Positions 20,939 to 29,562 of a stretch of DNA of 32,868 nucleotides are shown piece after piece; position 1 is the stretch's first letter; each line of letters starts with the position of its first letter. Under the pieces are notes generated by a model that saw nothing but the letters and a program-made list of their open reading frames with translations, was not told the origin of the DNA and made no database searches. This stretch comes from a virus, in IMG/VR virus record IMGVR_UViG_3300029448_000192, positions 480-33,347 of that record; one strand, given 5' to 3'. Both the position numbers and the translations under genes were made by a program.

Positions 20939-21820
20939 TTAAGTGCTTTTACCATGAGACTTACGAGTTGTCAATGCATTATTTGCAGAGGCATACGTAT
21001 TCTTCATGTAAGGTTTAACTGACTGTGGGTTACTGTGTCCTGTTACCGACATGATTTGTCCCATAGGCACACCAGCTTCGACCATCTGTGTCGTACCAGT
21101 GCGGCGTAAGTCCATCAGTCGTAGTTCATCAGGCAGTCCAGCTTCGCGCATGACAGCCCGACCAGCTTTGGATAGCCTCTCCATACTATACGGGTGGTAC
21201 TCGCCCTGTACGGGGCTTGTACGTGGCACTACGTAGGTTTGGAATCCAAAGTCAGCCTCTTGTTGTGTCAGCATAGACAGCAAGTCATCATCAATGGGTA
21301 GTGTAACTGTTGCCCTGCGCTTCGACTGTTCTAAGTACAGCTTCTTCTCATGCAGGTCAAGGTTATCCCATGTCAGTAATCGCATGTCACCTAGTCGCTG
21401 ACACCATTCGTATGCCATGTGTACAATCAAGCCAAGACTACGCCACTGAAAGTCGCTGTATGCAGTGTCAAGGAATTGACGTACATCATCCTCAGTCCAC
21501 ACAACTTTACGTTGAGGTGCTGTCTTACGCTTTACACTGGCAAATGGATTGACTGTCGCGTACTCCATCTCAATAGCATAGCGATACACAATAGATGAGA
21601 CAGTACAGGTGTGATTGGCGAGGCTAATGCCCCGCGCAACCCACTCTTCGTAAGCGTGTTTGGCTTGCTTACTTGTCAACTCATCATACTTTACATCACC
21701 AAATTCTTGACACATTACACGCAAGAAGTATTGATAGTCTTGTTTAGTTCTATCACGTAACATATTGTAATCGTTAGATGTATAGTACTTGTCAACGAGT
21801 TGCTGAACTGTCTTCATCAT
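20939..21820 (-). CDS. int: Tyrosine recombinase / integrase
   Basis: A 293-residue site-specific recombinase. Residues 1-100 form the core-binding (SAM-like) domain. The catalytic domain shows R142 (QRLGD), K167 (beta-hairpin SKRRATVTLPI), R239 (MDLRRTG), H262 (TGHS) and Y271, nine residues after H262 as in XerD. The usual His of the HxLR box is Met236, a change seen in many phage integrases. It lies between DUF932 and primase, co-transcribed with replication genes rather than next to an attachment site or excisionase. It may integrate the phage, resolve genome multimers, or both. The overlap with DUF932 (ATGATG) marks tight coupling. Confidence 0.93.
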   Translation of the reverse strand: MMKTVQQLVDKYYTSNDYNMLRDRTKQDYQYFLRVMCQEFGDVKYDELTSKQAKHAYEEWVARGISLANHTCTVSSIVYRYAIEMEYATVNPFASVKRKTAPQRKVVWTEDDVRQFLDTAYSDFQWRSLGLIVHMAYEWCQRLGDMRLLTWDNLDLHEKKLYLEQSKRRATVTLPIDDDLLSMLTQQEADFGFQTYVVPRTSPVQGEYHPYSMERLSKAGRAVMREAGLPDELRLMDLRRTGTTQMVEAGVPMGQIMSVTGHSNPQSVKPYMKNTYASANNALTTRKSHGKST

Positions 21821-22650
21821 GCCGCTAACAACTCCTTGAACTGCTTGCTTTCAATCCACTGTGCTACCTTTGCTTCACGCTGAAACATATTCACTGCCTC
21901 AGTATCACCGCCAGTGTTACGTAGCTTGAAACCATTGCGGTCATCAGCATACGTTGCATAGTTAGTGAACGCAGAGTACAACGCCCAAGCATTGTGACCA
22001 CGGACGTTAGCTTCTTGAGCATACAGCCCAAGCATCTTGTCACCTACCTTCTCTGACTTGAGAAGAGAGTGAAGCATGTCACGTACATTTGTGTACACAA
22101 GAGGCTTGTCAGCCCAGCCTTGCAAGCGTTCTGACTGTGCATAGAAGTCCTGCTTGCTACGATTAAGCTGACCAATGAATGTGTCAAGGTCAAAGCCACT
22201 GGTATTCTTACGGCGTACCTTGTCATGCTCACCACGTATCTGCCCATTGGTACAGAAGAAGTCGATAGCACCAAACAGTACAGTGTTTGAACACGTACCA
22301 TCCACACCATGCAATGCAATGATGCGTTGTGCTACCTCAGTCTCATGCTTCGGGGTAGTAATCTTAGCCTTCACATTAGGCAGGGTCATGTCCATCATAG
22401 CCCAGCCATTGTGATGTGCATCACGCCATGCAATGTTAGCACCATCTACCTCATGTGAGGTAAGGTTCTCTGTCACTGTGTCCATGACACTGCGAAAGAA
22501 ATCACCATGTGATGCACAGGTGAAGTCCTTGCCAACGATGGCGATAGGTTCAGCAGTGCTACGATTGATGACATACTTCTTGTCACTAACTCTTGTTGGT
22601 TCAAAGTCTACCTTGAAGTCAAGGTTCTCAGGGATATATTCTAATGGCAT
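21817..22650 (-). CDS. DUF932 family phage/plasmid-like protein
   Basis: A 277-residue protein of the DUF932 family, widespread in phages and plasmids with unknown biochemical role. Recognisable parts are the N-terminal YVINRSTAEPIAIVGKDF, the central NTVLFGAIDFFCTNGQIRGE, and the C-terminal NVRGHNAWALYSAFTNYATY. The ATG at 22650 has AAAAGGAG at ideal spacing and follows a promoter by about 30 bases. It is first in the operon that continues into integrase, primase, helicase and polymerase. Early, strong expression is inferred. Confidence 0.82.
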   Translation of the reverse strand: MPLEYIPENLDFKVDFEPTRVSDKKYVINRSTAEPIAIVGKDFTCASHGDFFRSVMDTVTENLTSHEVDGANIAWRDAHHNGWAMMDMTLPNVKAKITTPKHETEVAQRIIALHGVDGTCSNTVLFGAIDFFCTNGQIRGEHDKVRRKNTSGFDLDTFIGQLNRSKQDFYAQSERLQGWADKPLVYTNVRDMLHSLLKSEKVGDKMLGLYAQEANVRGHNAWALYSAFTNYATYADDRNGFKLRNTGGDTEAVNMFQREAKVAQWIESKQFKELLAA

Positions 22651-22681
22651 ATCTATTCTCCTTTTGTTTGTGTAAGATGCA

Positions 22682-22710
22682 GTTATATCACATAAGATAG
22701 GTTGTGTCAA
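22682..22710 (-). promoter_or_regulatory. Sigma70 promoter for the DUF932-int-primase-helicase-polA operon
   Basis: Minus-strand TTGACA (22710-22705), 17-base spacer, TATAAC (22687-22682): 11 of 12 consensus bases at ideal spacing. The -35 box overlaps the stop codon of the gene at 22707. The first downstream gene starts at 22650 behind a strong SD. Confidence 0.85.
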
Positions 22711-24351: not shown

Positions 24352-24505
24352 CATCATTCTCCTCATCCTTTGGATACCACACCTCAACATCACACCCACA
24401 ATTAGGGCAATGCAGTGCAGTCATCATTGAATAGCTGTCACTTTCATGTTCAACATCAAAGTCACTGCCCCATATCAGTTCATGTCTACAGTTCCAGCAG
24501 TTCAT
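24344..24505 (-). CDS. Small zinc-ribbon protein
   Basis: A 53-residue ORF with two cysteine knuckles, C3-x2-C6 (NCWNCRHEL) and C33-x2-C36 with C38 (LHCPNCGC), enough to hold one zinc ion. Between them is an acidic Ser-rich loop, and the end is acidic (KDEENDDD). Such zinc ribbons in phages often bind nucleic acid or RNA polymerase, but this is only a fold-level inference. Overlaps with both neighbours and the paired cysteines make it a real gene. Confidence 0.6.
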   Translation of the reverse strand: MNCWNCRHELIWGSDFDVEHESDSYSMMTALHCPNCGCDVEVWYPKDEENDDD

Positions 24506-25071: not shown

Positions 25072-25479
25072 TTATGCTACCTTCCTGATTGCCTTACGTC
25101 CACGCTTGCCACGGGCAAGGTCACGCAGGTTGTTGATAGTAAGGACACCAATCTCAATAGAGATAGCATCACGGTTCTTGCGGCGTACAGCCTTGCCAAG
25201 TGCCTTGTGCATTACATCCAGTGTCTTGAGTACAATAGCACCAGCATCACCATGAATGAAGCCACCACTGTCAGCCTTAGTTTCACGGGCAAGAGGCAGG
25301 ATAGCACGATACAGGTTGTAACGGCCTAGAGCCACGCCATGATACTTTTCGTACAGGGATTCAACTTTACCCAGCTTGGCCTCAATCTGAGGTGTTGCAA
25401 GTACTTGTCCAGTCATACCTGTTGAACGCTTGTGATATGTACCAGCCTTGATTGTAGTCTCAATGTTAAGTGATGTCAT
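25072..25479 (-). CDS. Basic hypothetical protein, possible nucleic-acid binder
   Basis: A 135-residue protein with a strong AAAGGAG before the ATG. The N-terminal half is mixed (TTIKAGTYHKRSTGMTGQVLATPQIEAKLGK). The C-terminal 40 residues are very basic (KALGKAVRRKNRDAISIEIG...DLARGKRGRKAIRKVA), compatible with DNA or RNA binding. One copy of the conserved 16-base hairpin lies just upstream, in the end of the preceding gene. No family assignment is possible by eye. Confidence 0.65.
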   Translation of the reverse strand: MTSLNIETTIKAGTYHKRSTGMTGQVLATPQIEAKLGKVESLYEKYHGVALGRYNLYRAILPLARETKADSGGFIHGDAGAIVLKTLDVMHKALGKAVRRKNRDAISIEIGVLTINNLRDLARGKRGRKAIRKVA

Positions 25480-25501: not shown

Positions 25502-25807
25502 TTAGTTTGTTAGTCCGCTGTCGGACTTAGGGTTGTTGTCGTTATTCCAAGAACGCAGAACGTACTTGGCCTTGTTTATAAACTGTCTTGCTTGTTCAGG
25601 GTCATGTGCTATGACTTGCTGTGCATCAGACAAGATAGACATAGCAAGCATGTAATGTCCACCAATAAAATTCATAGGGTCATTCATCATACACAACATA
25701 TCATCTTGTGTACAGCCGTACATACTCATGTACTGATTGTCTTTCTCAGACAATTCATAGTGTTCAATTTCTGTCCAATCATTCCAATCATGGTCAAACT
25801 CAGCCAT
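25502..25807 (-). CDS. Small hypothetical protein
   Basis: A 101-residue acidic, Met/Tyr-rich protein, AGGAG before the ATG. It contains YMSMYGCTQDDMLCMMNDPMNFIGGHYMLAMSILSDAQQVI, probably a helical core. Its last codons (KSDSGLTN) are encoded by a copy of the conserved hairpin repeat, so the repeat is part coding here. The function is unknown. Confidence 0.65.
   Translation of the reverse strand: MAEFDHDWNDWTEIEHYELSEKDNQYMSMYGCTQDDMLCMMNDPMNFIGGHYMLAMSILSDAQQVIAHDPEQARQFINKAKYVLRSWNNDNNPKSDSGLTN
25512..25527 (-). repeat. Directional hairpin repeat, copy 1
   Basis: In minus-strand RNA this reads AGTCCGACAGCGGACT: a perfect 6-bp stem with an ACAG loop. This copy lies in the last codons of the 25502 gene, about 30 bases before the start at 25479. 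Confidence 0.9.
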
Positions 25808-25931
25808 AGTTCTGCTCCTGTGCTATCTGTGTGTTACGCCGTGCAGTACGCCGAACATTCTGCTTGCGCTTGTTGTAACTACGCCATTGGTCACGCTTGC
25901 CCTCTGGCTTAGTTGTCTTTTGATTCTTCAT
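25800..25931 (-). CDS. Small very basic protein
   Basis: A 43-residue ORF of mostly Lys, Arg, Gln and Asn (begins MKNQKTTKPEGKRDQWRSYN, then RRTARRNTQ). It overlaps the 25807 start by 8 bases and supplies that gene's AGGAG, and it overlaps the upstream gene by 23 bases. The charge suggests nucleic-acid binding. No SD is clear before it, so coupling is assumed. Confidence 0.55.
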   Translation of the reverse strand: MKNQKTTKPEGKRDQWRSYNKRKQNVRRTARRNTQIAQEQNYG

Positions 25932-26067
25932 GTTGTCTAGCTTGATTTGCATTTTGTCTATCTTTCTTTTTGTTGTGTTTCTTTTTGTCAGGCACTACTT
26001 GTGAACGCTTGCGATTACTCTGTAGGAGTGCCTTTGCTACAGGGTTTATAGTATTTCTTATTCGCAT
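25909..26067 (-). CDS. Small basic NPVAKALL protein
   Basis: A 52-residue basic ORF beginning MRIRNTINPVAKALLQSNRKRSQVVPDKKK. The NPVAKAL...R..VV.DKKK pattern is one I associate with small conserved proteins of T7-like phages, function unknown. AAGGAGA lies 8 bases before the ATG and directly follows hairpin repeat copy 2. It is the first gene of a small-protein run downstream of a putative promoter at 26162-26190. Confidence 0.65.
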   Translation of the reverse strand: MRIRNTINPVAKALLQSNRKRSQVVPDKKKHNKKKDRQNANQARQHEESKDN

Positions 26068-26080
26068 TGTTAAATCTCCT

Positions 26081-26098
26081 TAGTCCGCTGTCGGACTA
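26081..26098 (-). repeat. Directional hairpin repeat, copy 2
   Basis: Same 16-base hairpin with one extra flanking T-A pair (7-bp stem). The SD AAGGAG of the gene at 26067 begins immediately after the stem, so folding could alter ribosome access. Confidence 0.92.
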
Positions 26099-26102
26099 GT
26101 CT

Positions 26103-26168
26103 AGTATATCTAAGTAACAATATATACTTCACTAAAGTATCAGTATATATATGTTACATAAGATATAC
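26103..26168. promoter_or_regulatory. 66-bp imperfect dyad (operator or attenuator-like)
   Basis: The arms GTATATCT..AAGTAAC and GTTAC.ATAAGATATAC face each other, continue inward as AT-rich pairs (26114-26157), and meet at CACTAAAGT (26130-26138) at the centre. It fills the gap between the GP88-like gene and the next gene and overlaps the -10 of a putative minus promoter. Confidence 0.7.
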
Positions 26169-26190
26169 ATAAGGTTTTAGCGGTTGTCAA
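26162..26190 (-). promoter_or_regulatory. Putative minus-strand promoter
   Basis: TTGACA (26190-26185), 17-base spacer, TATATC (26167-26162). The -35 is perfect and lies in the last codons of the GP88-like gene; the -10 matches four of six bases. It would transcribe the 26067-to-22707 small-protein run. Confidence 0.55.
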
Positions 26191-26881
26191 TAACAAATCC
26201 GCTATCATCGTGCTTGGCTCTGCCTTTGGCTTTGAGTCCAACGACTACACCCTTTGGGTCAAGGAATCGCAAGTCATCCTTGTCACCATCAATGACACGC
26301 AAGCCACGGAATGTCTCAGGCAATTCATCACGGAATACTACCGCCATGTTTACACCTGTATCCAGAACAGCTTGGTGAACCTTGTCAGCATAGTCCATAT
26401 CAGCTTCACTGTAAGACAGTGTGATGTGATAGTTGGCTGGCAATTCCATGTAAGCACGTTTGATTACCTTAGTGTAATCATAGAACTGAGCATCAGGATA
26501 GCTAGAGGCCAGCTTGATAGCATCACCCTTGTCATCTGTACCACCAAGCCGTATGCAAGGCATGATACCATTCTTAAGCTGACGCCGAATGAATGTCACA
26601 ATGTCAGCATTGAGAGCATCATAGAACCCGATAGGGTCAGACAGTAGCCACATAGTCTTGCGTTCCCTGCCACGTTGCACAGCGTTCATAGCCCCACGCC
26701 CTGCTGTAAACAGGCAACCCTCATGGCACTTGGCTGTCTCAGCCATAGCACATAGGTTATGCACCTTGCCCTTGAACATGGTCTTGAACGGCTTGAGATA
26801 GCGGATAGCTGTCACATATTCAGAGCCATCACCCTTGATAGTCTTGGCATTATTGCCAACGCCTAATATTTGGTAAGTCAT
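26177..26881 (-). CDS. GP88-domain protein
   Basis: A 234-residue protein resembling the phage 'gene product 88' domain family. The hallmark is a cysteine cluster followed by a Gly/Arg block: C44-x7-C52-x3-C56 then LFTAGRG (HNLCAMAETAKCHEGCLFTAGRG, split here at residue 57), then RERKTMW. A central IRLGGTDD and a later DAVVF-like hydrophobic core follow. The three close cysteines could bind metal or an Fe-S cluster; that is speculation. I chose the ATG at 26881 (GGAG upstream) over an earlier one at 26908. The biochemical function of the family is not established. Confidence 0.65.
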   Translation of the reverse strand: MTYQILGVGNNAKTIKGDGSEYVTAIRYLKPFKTMFKGKVHNLCAMAETAKCHEGCLFTAGRGAMNAVQRGRERKTMWLLSDPIGFYDALNADIVTFIRRQLKNGIMPCIRLGGTDDKGDAIKLASSYPDAQFYDYTKVIKRAYMELPANYHITLSYSEADMDYADKVHQAVLDTGVNMAVVFRDELPETFRGLRVIDGDKDDLRFLDPKGVVVGLKAKGRAKHDDSGFVIDNR

Positions 26882-26886
26882 ATCAT

Positions 26887-27045
26887 TTACTCCATATGTA
26901 AGTGGCAAATAATGCCACGGTCATCGTCACAATAGCACTCATCGTCAATGAGTTTTTGCTCATAGCACTCAGCGCAATACATATCATCTGCATCAGGGCA
27001 ATATGTGAAAGCGTTATGCTGGTCACAACTTGCACATTTACTCAT
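26887..27045 (-). CDS. Small cysteine-rich protein (zinc-binding candidate)
   Basis: A 52-residue acidic ORF with eight cysteines: C4-x2-C7, C16, C24-x2-C27, C37-x-C39 and C47, plus several His. The two CxxC knuckles suggest a treble-clef or double zinc ribbon. It overlaps the previous stop (ATGA) and ends shortly before the GP88-like start, providing its GGAG. It may be an inhibitor or nucleic-acid binding peptide; the function is unknown. Confidence 0.6.
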   Translation of the reverse strand: MSKCASCDQHNAFTYCPDADDMYCAECYEQKLIDDECYCDDDRGIICHLHME

Positions 27046-27320
27046 CACACCCACTCCATTTCATAAGCATCTTCAAGCCAACGCATAGCGGTAGCTATGT
27101 CTGGACAGCCACTGTCCATGCAAGAATTGATTGCATCATCTTCTAGCTTGCGCTGATGACGTAGTTCCTCATCAAGCATACGTTGAAGCGTAGCAACCTC
27201 AGACTGTAGGTCTGTGATAGAACACAGGTCATAGTTCATGCCACGAGGCCTTACACCATGTACATCCTTGAACAAGTCCCACAAGGTCTGTACTAATTCA
27301 TCTTTGTAAATTGTAGCCAA
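27045..27320 (-). CDS. Small conserved phage protein (WDLFKDVHGVRPRG)
   Basis: A 91-residue protein whose N-terminus, LVQTLWDLFKDVHGVRPRGMNYD, belongs to a common small protein of marine and enteric phages with unknown role. Residues 35-60 form a coiled helix (LQSEVATLQRMLDEELRHQRKLEDD). The start is a TTG with AGGAG 8 bases upstream; no in-frame ATG precedes the conserved block. The end overlaps the Cys-rich gene. Confidence 0.7.
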   Translation of the reverse strand: MATIYKDELVQTLWDLFKDVHGVRPRGMNYDLCSITDLQSEVATLQRMLDEELRHQRKLEDDAINSCMDSGCPDIATAMRWLEDAYEMEWV

Positions 27321-27331
27321 TTTATAATCTC

Positions 27332-27544
27332 CTAAAATCTAGTGCTGTCTTGGTCACTATATAGTGGGTCAGGGTAAGTATTACCCTTGTCACCATATAC
27401 AACGAGGTCATTGTCAAAATCAATGTCACCATATGACCTATAGTCATGGTAAGAGTGGATGAAGTCAGGCTTCCCAAACGCTCTCACAGCGGCACTGTAC
27501 TGTGCATCAGTACGGAATCCGACAAAGTGTATAGCGCATTTCAT
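27332..27544 (-). CDS. Small hypothetical protein
   Basis: A 70-residue protein from the ATG at 27544, AGGAG 8 bases upstream immediately after hairpin repeat copy 3. It is rich in Asp, Tyr and Phe (AIHFVGFRTDAQYSAAVRAFGKPDFIHSYHD). This resembles small conserved phage proteins that begin with a beta strand and helix. No catalytic motif. Confidence 0.6.
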   Translation of the reverse strand: MKCAIHFVGFRTDAQYSAAVRAFGKPDFIHSYHDYRSYGDIDFDNDLVVYGDKGNTYPDPLYSDQDSTRF

Positions 27545-27557
27545 TTTCAATTCTCCT

Positions 27558-27575
27558 TAGTCCGCTGTCGGACTA
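27558..27575 (-). repeat. Directional hairpin repeat, copy 3
   Basis: Identical core and loop, 7-bp stem. The SD AAGGAG of the 27544 gene starts directly after it, exactly as at copy 2. Confidence 0.92.
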
Positions 27576-27596
27576 GCTAGAGTGGATATAAGTAAG

Positions 27597-27624
27597 AACA
27601 CTTATCACTTACGTTCTAAGTGTT
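27597..27624. promoter_or_regulatory. Inverted repeat at promoter start site (operator candidate)
   Basis: AACACTT (27597-27603) and AAGTGTT (27618-27624), 7-bp arms with a 14-base centre that contains another CACTT. It covers the expected transcription start of the promoter at 27630-27659. The half sites resemble those of the 29701 palindrome. Confidence 0.55.
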
Positions 27625-27629
27625 ATTAC

Positions 27630-27659
27630 GTTATACACACTAAAGTAAATTCTTGTCAA
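27630..27659 (-). promoter_or_regulatory. Sigma70-type promoter with operator-like spacer
   Basis: TTGACA (27659-27654), 18-base spacer, TATAAC (27635-27630). The spacer contains CACTAAAGT (27638-27646 on the plus strand), and the -35 lies in the last codons of the 27640 gene. It would drive the genes from 27544 downwards. Confidence 0.78.
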
Positions 27660-27897
27660 TCATCCTTTGTTTCAACTCAAGCAAAGCTTGCATTTGTGCA
27701 TCACGCTTTGCATCTGCCGCAATCTTGGCATCATACTCAGCTTGCCAAGCATCAGCTTGACCTGTCACATAAACATGGAAATCAGGCCGTGTCTCAGGCT
27801 CATAGCTACGACTATAGGCTTGAGTATCCATGCTACGCCAGCTTGAGCCTAGCGGCTTGTGCTTACCCATGTCTACGATTGCGCCACGTTTAGCCAT
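27640..27897 (-). CDS. Small hypothetical protein
   Basis: An 85-residue protein from the ATG at 27897 with GAGAGG upstream. It begins MAKRGAIVDMGKHKPLGSSWRS. The C-terminal 35 residues are an Ala/Lys/Gln helix (WQAEYDAKIAADAKRDAQMQALLELKQRM). The overlap with the membrane protein gene upstream is 8 bases. Its last codons hold a promoter -35. The function is unknown. Confidence 0.6.
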   Translation of the reverse strand: MAKRGAIVDMGKHKPLGSSWRSMDTQAYSRSYEPETRPDFHVYVTGQADAWQAEYDAKIAADAKRDAQMQALLELKQRMIDKNLL

Positions 27898-28126
27898 TGT
27901 TTCTGTACCTCTCAATAATTTCATCTTCGATGCGGAACTGTCTAATCCGCAAAGCACTCTCATAAAAACACAAACCCATTGCCCAAGTCATAAAGCTAAT
28001 GCAAAGCATTATTCCTGCAGACATGGCATCATGTAGCACAAGGATAATGGGTGATGATGCAAACGCCATGAACGCTATACACCACCAGAACAGGCAACAA
28101 ATGCTATGGAAATATTCTCTAATCAT
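27890..28126 (-). CDS. Two-pass membrane protein, holin candidate
   Basis: A 78-residue protein. Two hydrophobic helices are visible, about residues 9-32 (ICCLFWWCIAFMAFASSPIILVL) and 36-56 (AGIMLCISFMTWAMGLCFY), followed by a charged basic/acidic C-terminus (RIRQFRIEDEIIERYRNNG). Size, two spans and charged tail fit a class II holin, but its place in the early minus-strand block argues for host membrane modulation instead. A CGGAG lies about 9 bases before the ATG, downstream of hairpin repeat copy 4. Confidence 0.65.
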   Translation of the reverse strand: MIREYFHSICCLFWWCIAFMAFASSPIILVLHDAMSAGIMLCISFMTWAMGLCFYESALRIRQFRIEDEIIERYRNNG

Positions 28127-28150
28127 AATTTAATACTCCGTATTAAGCTA

Positions 28151-28166
28151 AGTCCGCTGTCGGACT
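28151..28166 (-). repeat. Directional hairpin repeat, copy 4
   Basis: Identical 16-base core. It lies about 25 bases before the start at 28126 and just after a separate hairpin at the end of the upstream gene (28180-28199). Confidence 0.9.
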
Positions 28167-28179
28167 AAGAAAAGGTAGA

Positions 28180-28199
28180 CTGTAGGGATTACCCTACAG
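28180..28199 (-). terminator. Hairpin around a stop codon (attenuator candidate)
   Basis: CTGTAGGG-TAAT-CCCTACAG as minus-strand RNA, a perfect 8-bp stem. The TAA stop of the 28189 gene forms the loop. The following TCTACCTTTTCTT is only moderately T-rich, so it may be a weak terminator or an mRNA 3'-end stabiliser. Confidence 0.5.
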
Positions 28200-28812
28200 C
28201 CTCAAAAGGTACAACTTCGTTGTCTTGTTTAATCATACCAATAGCATTTGCTATTGCAATCTCAAAATCAGCTATGCTGATATTATTCATTTCTACTTGC
28301 AGTAGAACTTCGAGAGCCAAATCTTCAGCAGTCTTTTCAGACTGTACAGAGGACTTGTCCTCAATCTGCTTAACCTCATCTTGAGGTTCAACAGGTGTCT
28401 CAACCTCTGGTTCAACAGTCTCTTCAACCTTTGGGTTGACAATCTTATCGACTGCTTTCAGTAAATCTTTCATAGAAGCAAACTTGCCAATCAGCTTGTT
28501 ATCTTCGATAACTTTGAAATGACGAACAAAGTCCATTGCCTCTTTACGCCGTTGCTTTGCAACAGTGTGGAGGTTGGCATCTTTCAGCAAAGCTGAGTCA
28601 GTCCGAACTCCACCAGACTGCTTTAGCAGTTCAAGACAAATCTCTCCAAGAGAGAACCAAAAGCCATCCTTAGCACAAAGTGCTTTGAAGCGGCTCTTAT
28701 CAGCTTTGCTGATTGACTTATCCCATTGGGATAATACTAAGCCTTTGGCTTGAACAGTGTTATTAGCTTCAGCTAATTGAACAGAGAACGATTTTGAAGT
28801 TGGTTTAGCCAT
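28189..28812 (-). CDS. Hypothetical protein, first gene of the minus block
   Basis: A 207-residue protein with AAAAGGA before the ATG. The N-terminal 110 residues are basic and helical (LSQWDKSISKADKSRFKALCAKDGFWFSLGEICLELLKQSGGV, then AKQRRKEAMDFVRHF). A Pro/Glu/Val-rich acidic linker (about 128-165) and an acidic helical end follow. Being nearest to the divergent control region, it is a reasonable candidate for an early regulator or host-takeover protein, though no HTH motif is clear. Stop lies in a hairpin loop. Confidence 0.6.
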   Translation of the reverse strand: MAKPTSKSFSVQLAEANNTVQAKGLVLSQWDKSISKADKSRFKALCAKDGFWFSLGEICLELLKQSGGVRTDSALLKDANLHTVAKQRRKEAMDFVRHFKVIEDNKLIGKFASMKDLLKAVDKIVNPKVEETVEPEVETPVEPQDEVKQIEDKSSVQSEKTAEDLALEVLLQVEMNNISIADFEIAIANAIGMIKQDNEVVPFEAVG

Positions 28813-28846
28813 GATAATTTCCTTTTATCTATCTTTAGGTTTTATA

Positions 28847-28879
28847 GGGATATATCCCCTTTCACTAAAGTTCAAGGGG
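28847..28879. promoter_or_regulatory. Overlapping palindrome and hairpin with operator core
   Basis: GGGATATATCCC (28847-28858) is a perfect 12-bp palindrome. It overlaps CCCCTT (28856-28861) ... AAGGGG (28874-28879), whose 12-base loop holds CACTAAAGT (28863-28871). It lies 35-67 bases before the 28812 start, where a promoter or operator is expected. A minus-strand TTGAAC-N15-TATATC is present but weak. Confidence 0.6.
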
Positions 28880-28924
28880 TATATTCCTTAAAACCGTAAG
28901 AAGATAGTTAAAGTTTGGAGGTTG

Positions 28925-29018
28925 CCTCGCGCCATCTCCTGCTTGCGCCGTTTCGCTTGTGATTGCAGTAATCGTAGATTACGAAATTGGTGCGTGAAAC
29001 TCGTGACGGGTAGCGAGG
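28925..29018. ncRNA. Candidate structured RNA or DNA element
   Basis: Three nested complementary pairs share one axis: CCTCGC (28925-28930) with GCGAGG (29013-29018), GTTTC (28950-28954) with GAAAC (28996-29000), and GTAATC (28968-28973) with GATTAC (28977-28982) around a GTA loop. The stretch is more GC-rich than its surroundings and has no convincing ORF on either strand. It is not a tRNA: there is no T-loop consensus or 7-bp acceptor. The strand is not determined; no promoter dedicated to it is seen. Confidence 0.4.
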
Positions 29019-29045
29019 TTTGCCATTTGGTTGCTATCCCTGTGA

Positions 29046-29140
29046 CTATCACCTTCAGTGATAGGGGGTGTAGTCCGCTGTCGGACTAAGGTTCACCTTT
29101 GGTGAGATAATAGAAGCATAAGCATTACAACTTGTTGTAA
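29046..29140. repeat. String of short-loop hairpins
   Basis: Four consecutive hairpins: CTATCAC-CTTCA-GTGATAG (29046-29064), repeat copy 5 (29071-29088), TCACC-TTT-GGTGA (29093-29105) and TTACAA-CTTG-TTGTAA (29125-29140). All have perfect stems of 5-7 bp and loops of 3-5 bases. No gene covers them. Confidence 0.75.
29071..29088 (-). repeat. Directional hairpin repeat, copy 5
   Basis: Identical core with a 7-bp stem. Unlike copies 1-4 it is about 260 bases before the nearest minus-strand start (28812), within the hairpin string. Confidence 0.92.
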
Positions 29141-29533: not shown

Positions 29534-29562
29534 TTGACAAACTCCTTAAAATCAGGTATAAT
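29534..29562 (+). promoter_or_regulatory. Perfect sigma70 consensus promoter
   Basis: TTGACA (29534-29539), 17-base spacer, TATAAT (29557-29562): 12 of 12 consensus bases at ideal spacing. The start is expected near 29569, beside the first operator-like palindrome (29580-29591). It reads into the 29755 gene and the plus-strand block. Such a strong promoter is likely active at once on entry unless repressed. Confidence 0.9.

Follow-up and report, generated by a model that had tools for sequence, protein, structure and literature searches.

In operators of the lambda, P22 and 434 type, palindromic half-sites lie one turn apart, and regulator and sites are replaced jointly. In the N/nut antitermination of lambdoid phages, a leader site, the first early gene and a terminator follow one another, with matched protein and site specificities and with boxB as an RNA hairpin. 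Lambda cI is described in PMC9283540, and in cluster A mycobacteriophages, such as L5 with its protein gp71, each genome has a short stoperator site in numerous copies, most of which lie in small gene gaps away from recognised promoters (PMC6550527; PMC9283540). The repressor of this system acts on both initiation and elongation of transcription and confers superinfection immunity. A further relevant system is RK2 KorB, a single global regulator with dispersed palindromic O_B operators in promoter-proximal and distal positions (PMC11790492). Here, we analyse five copies of the 16-base palindrome AGTCCGACAGCGGACT in a stretch of viral DNA of 32,868 nucleotides (nt), positions 480 to 33,347 of the 33.3-kb IMG/VR record IMGVR_UViG_3300029448_000192, in the following termed the window. 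We propose, with a probability of roughly 0.62, that these copies are dyad-symmetric DNA operators for the protein of gp01 (the gene that comes first after the leader site of the array), and that they serve a stoperator-like shut-off.

The window carries genes for DNA polymerase I, helicase, primase, integrase and ribonucleotide reductase, and its DNA is about 80% identical to HMO-2011 across 41% of a 7.5-kb query. This gene set and DNA identity assign the window, as a genome fragment, to the marine podoviruses of the HMO-2011 type, HMO-2011 itself being a SAR116 podovirus. HMO-2011-type phages are described as dominant and widespread in the ocean (PMC9038755).

The dyad array and its counterparts in relatives

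The five copies that a preliminary description of the window had listed are all exact and lie on the minus strand (Table 1). A search that tolerated up to three mismatches, with a chance expectation of 0.13, returned a single additional match, and this has three mismatches. When any repeated dyad with 5-bp arms was searched de novo between positions 24400 and 30000, the highest copy number was five, as compared to one or two in 30 dinucleotide shuffles. HMO-2011 shares the five-site array, which spans about 3.3 kb of its 55-kb genome, and in the Roseobacter phages CRP-1 and CRP-345 the sites take the form GTCCA-N4-TGGAC, copies of which also occur within genes. A search of the early regions of CRP-2, CRP-3, CRP-207, CRP-13, HTVC115P and ctYwJ313 gave no dispersed array, and CRP-603 has a local TGTGATCACA cluster only. 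Small-palindrome clusters close to the leader (L029, L025, L023, L031) consist of TGTGATCACA in CRP-603, CRP-1 and CRP-345, and of TACTNNNAGTA / GTTTAAYRTTAAAC in CRP-13. The match GTCCAAGGTTGGAC in the integrase gene of CRP phages was rejected as an array member, as it resembles conserved coding sequence.

Relatives were sampled without reference to the motif, using as anchors the DUF932-like protein (A1) and the 52-amino-acid protein encoded between two of the sites (A4). A first GTCC sample had been picked by the motif, and all frequency statements rest solely on the motif-blind samples, in which counts are not independent because the genomes are related. GTCC arrays were present in 10 of the 18 DUF932 loci with sufficient upstream DNA, and three more (L180, L193, L200) had other palindromes. 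Among the loci of the 52-amino-acid protein, 48 of 61 contained three or more copies of a dyad family (46 of 61 if L277 and L278, with three TCCCTAGGGA copies, are excluded), and arrays with weak or short arms may escape detection. Shuffled controls (20 regions, five shuffles each) never gave more than two dyad copies. The arrays consist of 3–9 near-identical dyads that extend across roughly 3 kb in the left gene block, and at least eight different palindrome types take the array's place across relatives, namely GTCC(R)-N4, GTCAC-N3, GTAAC-N3, GTGGT-N4, GTGTT-N4, GTCTG-N5, TAATC-N3, TTTAC-N2 and possibly TCCCTAGGGA.

The sites are found in the leader and then 13–35 nt ahead of successive starts, or within genes, and 67% of them are no more than 60 nt away from a gene start, compared with 24% of random positions. 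The placement ahead of Shine-Dalgarno sequences and starts, already pointed out for the window in the preliminary description, is thus real; in the window, AAGGAG indeed follows the stem immediately at 26082 and 27559, and a start comes about 24 nt after the copy at 28151 and about 32 nt after that at 25512. In the half-sites, (T/A)AGTCCRA, the centre-to-centre distance is 10 bp, i.e., one helical turn, and the 4-bp centre is loosely constrained, a spacing that fits a protein dimer on one face of the DNA.

Pairing of the sites with the first gene

The gene gp01 was detected in all 13 genomes that have a GTCC array, and in none of the nine that lack an array, the latter being a small control set; nor was it detected in L180, L193 and L200 with their other palindromes. 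In the close relatives L193 and L200, the DNA is 88–94% identical on either side of a swapped segment that holds unrelated first genes, and the distal sites of the two, which lie within the right flank of 94% identity, differ from each other (GTGGTAAGTACCAC versus GTAAAACATTTTAC). Across 26 genomes, the divergence of the site core correlated with that of gp01 (rho 0.71), and the partial correlation given DUF932 was likewise 0.71 (p=0.001), whereas site core and DUF932 given gp01 yielded −0.18. With six further control genes (five from the same region), the gp01 core partials were 0.56–0.82, and those of the controls at most 0.27 (at most 0.37 with full half-sites), so that none of the seven control genes tracks site divergence as well as gp01. 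These partial Mantel and permutation tests, for which motif-picked and motif-blind samples were both used, handle kinship solely through the control genes. Within gp01, the core signal came from the N-terminal domain (0.67) and not from the remainder (0.04).

In the other array types, the first-gene families match the palindrome type, and in L314, L317 and L319, which were fetched by their first gene alone, the predicted palindrome was present in the leader at −123 to −132. The first gene of L234 (GTCAC-CGC) groups with the GTAAC family and not with other GTCAC genomes, and the arm sequence alone is therefore an imperfect label; L233 and L250 have a common TTTAC-like core and different first genes. 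The automatic choice of the first open reading frame (ORF) missed the expected gene in one GTGTT locus and in L252, and returned nothing for the other GTGTT locus and L283. Taken together, the cognate pairing of site and first gene is well supported by these comparisons of sequences, the array sites are probably DNA dyads paired with gp01, and we infer that gp01 binds them.

In the AlphaFold2 model, gp01 has a helical N domain that is predicted with confidence, followed by a disordered linker (132–157) and a C-terminal helical hairpin, and the GTAAC-family first gene, which is unrelated to gp01, showed the same layout at lower model confidence. Neither had a significant match to solved structures, and family and fold searches with the other first genes gave nothing firm. 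By our own reading of the model, which no tool returned, helices 73–78 and 86–97 with a (R/K)RRR/KQRR stretch may form a helix-turn-helix-like arrangement. Since no known family matches the first-gene proteins, new DNA-binding folds may be among them.

Alternative explanations

The preliminary description had suggested a post-transcriptional switch, an RNase site or an operator for an RNA-binding protein, and one may indeed think of RNA hairpins that are bound by gp01 in an N/nut-like antitermination or in translational control, with a leader site, the first gene, a site, a terminator and further genes in series. The site-gene-site-terminator order in L180 and L193, the distances of 13–35 nt to the starts, the folding of the 5–7 bp GTCC-class stem-loops at −6 to −10 kcal/mol, and the sense bias of centres and inner pairs discussed below would agree with this. 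However, the centres flip freely inside genomes: in 18 of 34 genomes, one and the same centre is present in either orientation, with a 3:3 ratio in L234 and L237, and the leader-site centre is flipped in L183, L008 and L240. The identical loop and orientation noted earlier therefore stand for the window and not for the relatives, as one of the five HMO-2011 copies is flipped to CTGT. Loop changes in close relatives had been named as a finding that would speak against a directional hairpin, and ACAG, ATAG, ATGT and CTGT are all found as centres in the nearest clade, with mixed centres even inside single genomes (L006/L010). Furthermore, the TTTACTGGTAAA arrays of the TTTAC type (L250, L251) have an RNA folding energy of 0.0, compared with −6 to −9 in the GTCC class, although most of their sites hold the same positions as the other types, 18–30 nt ahead of starts, and part of the GTGTT and GTAAC arrays also barely fold. 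At the ±1 positions of 245 sites, C-A/A-C was found in 109 and T-G/G-T in 21 cases, so the stem is not extended by wobble pairs, and flanking bases do not extend it either. An Rfam search gave no relevant match. Because of the centre flips, the non-folding TTTAC arrays and the sites within coding sequence, the array sites are best read as DNA dyads rather than RNA elements, and we regard the RNA explanation as improbable. The earlier preference for sequence-specific recognition over plain termination was borne out, and intrinsic terminators were rejected, as none of the five sites appeared in a terminator scan and no T run follows them.

The dyads could also be centromere-like sites of the parS/KorB type, on which the first-gene product would load before it spreads or condenses the DNA in partition, replication or packaging; gene regulation would then be secondary. 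Four to nine perfect palindromes in one region, independent of reading frames, and the precedent of KorB, whose dispersed operators silence at a distance (PMC11790492), would be compatible with this idea, but a Pfam scan of 41 gp01 members gave no ParB or KorB domain above the cut-off (one member reached E=0.099), no ParA was noticed, and the sites track gene starts, which makes such a role still less probable than an RNA function. Selfish REPIN-like palindromes that copy themselves and have no regulatory role could account for near-identical copies per genome and in-frame insertions within genes, but hardly for a number, region and start distance that are alike across unrelated palindrome types, for the coupling to one gene, or for the in-place substitution at L193/L200, and this is very unlikely. 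Even less credit can be given to recombination sites of the phage integrase: there is an integrase gene nearby, and centres are alike within many genomes and differ between genomes, but such sites need identical asymmetric centres, and the centres are mixed in L006/L010; the site sequence does not track the integrase (partial −0.01 to 0.06), array-less genomes carry an integrase as well, and early genes would be deleted.

Several observations do weigh against gp01-bound DNA operators. The GTCC-class centre is biased with gene sense (ATGT 94 versus ACAT 29), and asymmetric inner pairs on the sense strand are G-T and never A-C (8:0), which mildly favours an RNA or directional function; as sites at homologous positions are not independent, we treat both as inherited or directional features. 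Consensus promoters in the region number 16 versus 13.8 expected, with no excess near the sites, and for this reason we make no promoter claim and a promoter-type operator role is unproven. Moreover, searches with gp01 in Pfam, PHROGs, PDB sequences and the folds of PDB and BFVD did not link it to any known family of DNA-binding proteins, the only match in those searches being one unnamed viral protein with 79% identity, and CRP-3, the sole member shown to lysogenise, has no such array in the regions searched.

Proposed mechanism

In our model of a dispersed array of DNA operators, gp01 would recognise the sites via its N-terminal helical domain. Its binding to the leader site would restrict the transcription of gp01 itself, and at the sites in gene gaps and within genes it would block or slow elongation in the left operon, similar to stoperators, so that the build-up of gp01 would shut the left operon down. 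The placement fits a regulator that acts along the path of the transcript, as at stoperators (PMC6550527; PMC9283540), more than promoter-only action. We give this repressor mechanism about even odds, and the early expression of the array region is likewise an assumption of ours.

In integrase-bearing members, gp01 may double as an immunity repressor. Temperate phages are thought to be among such members, and integration has been shown for CRP-3 (PMC9038755; PMC6918029); PMC9038755 reports an integrase in some HMO-2011-type phages and mentions no repressor. No gp01 relatives were confirmed in 84,980 bacterial and archaeal genomes, and three DUF932 matches in that set resemble phage contigs binned into metagenome-assembled genomes. 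One 62.8-kb HMO-2011-like contig is present in two such genomes of different phyla (L311, L312) and is probably a binning contaminant. A role as lysogeny repressor and a role in lytic-phase shut-off or exclusion may be equally possible. A rather speculative extension is lytic-phase immunity, in which the first early protein of each phage would saturate its own array and silence newcomers of the same specificity, favouring rare specificities, and several unrelated DNA-binding families would have been recruited to the slot, each with a matching array.

Features of the locus

Table 1. Array sites and associated genes in the window.
Feature	Position	Strand	Remarks
Array site 1 (leader site)	29072..29087	-	exact AGTCCGACAGCGGACT; ~260 nt upstream of gp01
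Array site 2	28151..28166	-	24 nt ahead of the start of ORF 27890-28126
Array site 3	27559..27574	-	AAGGAG of ORF 27332-27550 abuts the site
Array site 4	26082..26097	-	AAGGAG of ORF 25909-26067 abuts the site
Array site 5	25512..25527	-	within the 3' end of ORF 25502-25807; 32 nt ahead of the start of ORF 25072-25479
101-amino-acid ORF	25502..25807	-	final codons (KSDSGL) are site 5; protein ends ...PKSDSGLTN*
Gene of the 52-amino-acid NPVAK...VVPDK protein	25909..26067	-	between sites 4 and 5; motif-blind anchor A4
Gene of the DUF932-like protein	21817..22710	-	control gene; first motif-blind anchor A1
gp01, 207 amino acids	28189..28812	-	first gene after site 1; putative cognate DNA-binding protein

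At its end, gp01 has a terminator-like stem (28202-28177), and site 2 comes just after this stem. The HMO-2011 counterpart of site 5 is likewise coding, being inside the annotated coding sequence phage1322_02. A −10-like TATACT is located 5–6 nt upstream of site 4 and is kept in relatives. Also upstream of site 4 (26100-26150) and in relatives, there is an AT-rich stem (ATATATACT...AGTATATAT, AACACTT...AAGTGTT) that seems to be altered on both arms between relatives. Between the leader site and gp01, a conserved leader (28870-29060, minus strand) is possibly structured (CCTCG...CACGAG...CGAGG); resembling pieces are present in CRP-1, CRP-345 and L167, and Rfam gave no match. At 28127-28150 (minus strand) and in L183, L194 and L167, the Shine-Dalgarno GGA is often the triloop of a short hairpin, a CsrA-like presentation (TTAATAC-GGA-GTATTAA, CAAAC-GGA-GTTTG, TTAAC-GGA-GTTAA). 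In L180 (4561-4620) and L193 (3973-4030), the second array site, which comes after the first gene, is immediately followed by a strong intrinsic terminator. A perfect consensus promoter (TTGACA-17-TATAAT) at 29534-29562 on the plus strand is directed into the plus-strand genes.

Comparison with known systems

The unannotated first gene and its matched operator array are probably a control system of HMO-2011-type phages. At least eight specificity types with readable pairs of protein and site would allow superinfection immunity in marine phages, and the turnover of their specificities, to be tested directly. Literature searches on marine phages returned no relevant work on stoperators or dispersed operators, and N4-type hairpin promoters, which go with a phage virion RNA polymerase, were rejected as a parallel, since no RNA polymerase is annotated in HMO-2011.

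As in phage operator/repressor systems in general, dyads are paired here with a phage-encoded protein, as seen by covariation, and the layout with its type-matched first gene resembles the immunity switches of other phages. With the lambda, P22 and 434 operators, the arrays share half-sites one turn apart and heterotypic specificities by joint replacement of regulator and sites, but the sites are not gathered at one control region, and the regulator is not recognisable as cI or Cro. The order of leader site, first gene and terminator in some relatives and the matched specificities are reminiscent of lambdoid N/nut, whereas the DNA-dyad behaviour, the 4–9 copies and the inability of some to fold as RNA are not. 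Like O_B of RK2, the sites are dispersed palindromes with promoter-proximal and distal positions and one proposed regulator (PMC11790492), but no KorB/ParB domain was found, and there are many site types within one phage group. The cluster A stoperators (PMC6550527; PMC9283540) have in common with the arrays the many copies of one short site, the location in small gene gaps mostly outside recognised promoters, and a site specificity that diverges together with the phage-encoded protein, here seen by covariation. L5-type sites are also strand-oriented; in the arrays, there is a GTCC-class bias of 94:29, and both orientations are present in 18 of 34 genomes. L5-type sites, however, are asymmetric, 13–14 bp long, monomer-bound and present in 20–30 copies per genome, while the arrays consist of 4–9 perfect dyads within about 3 kb, with a flippable centre, and gp01, unlike L5 gp71 with its helix-turn-helix and stoperator domains, is the first gene of the operon and has no detectable relationship or fold match.

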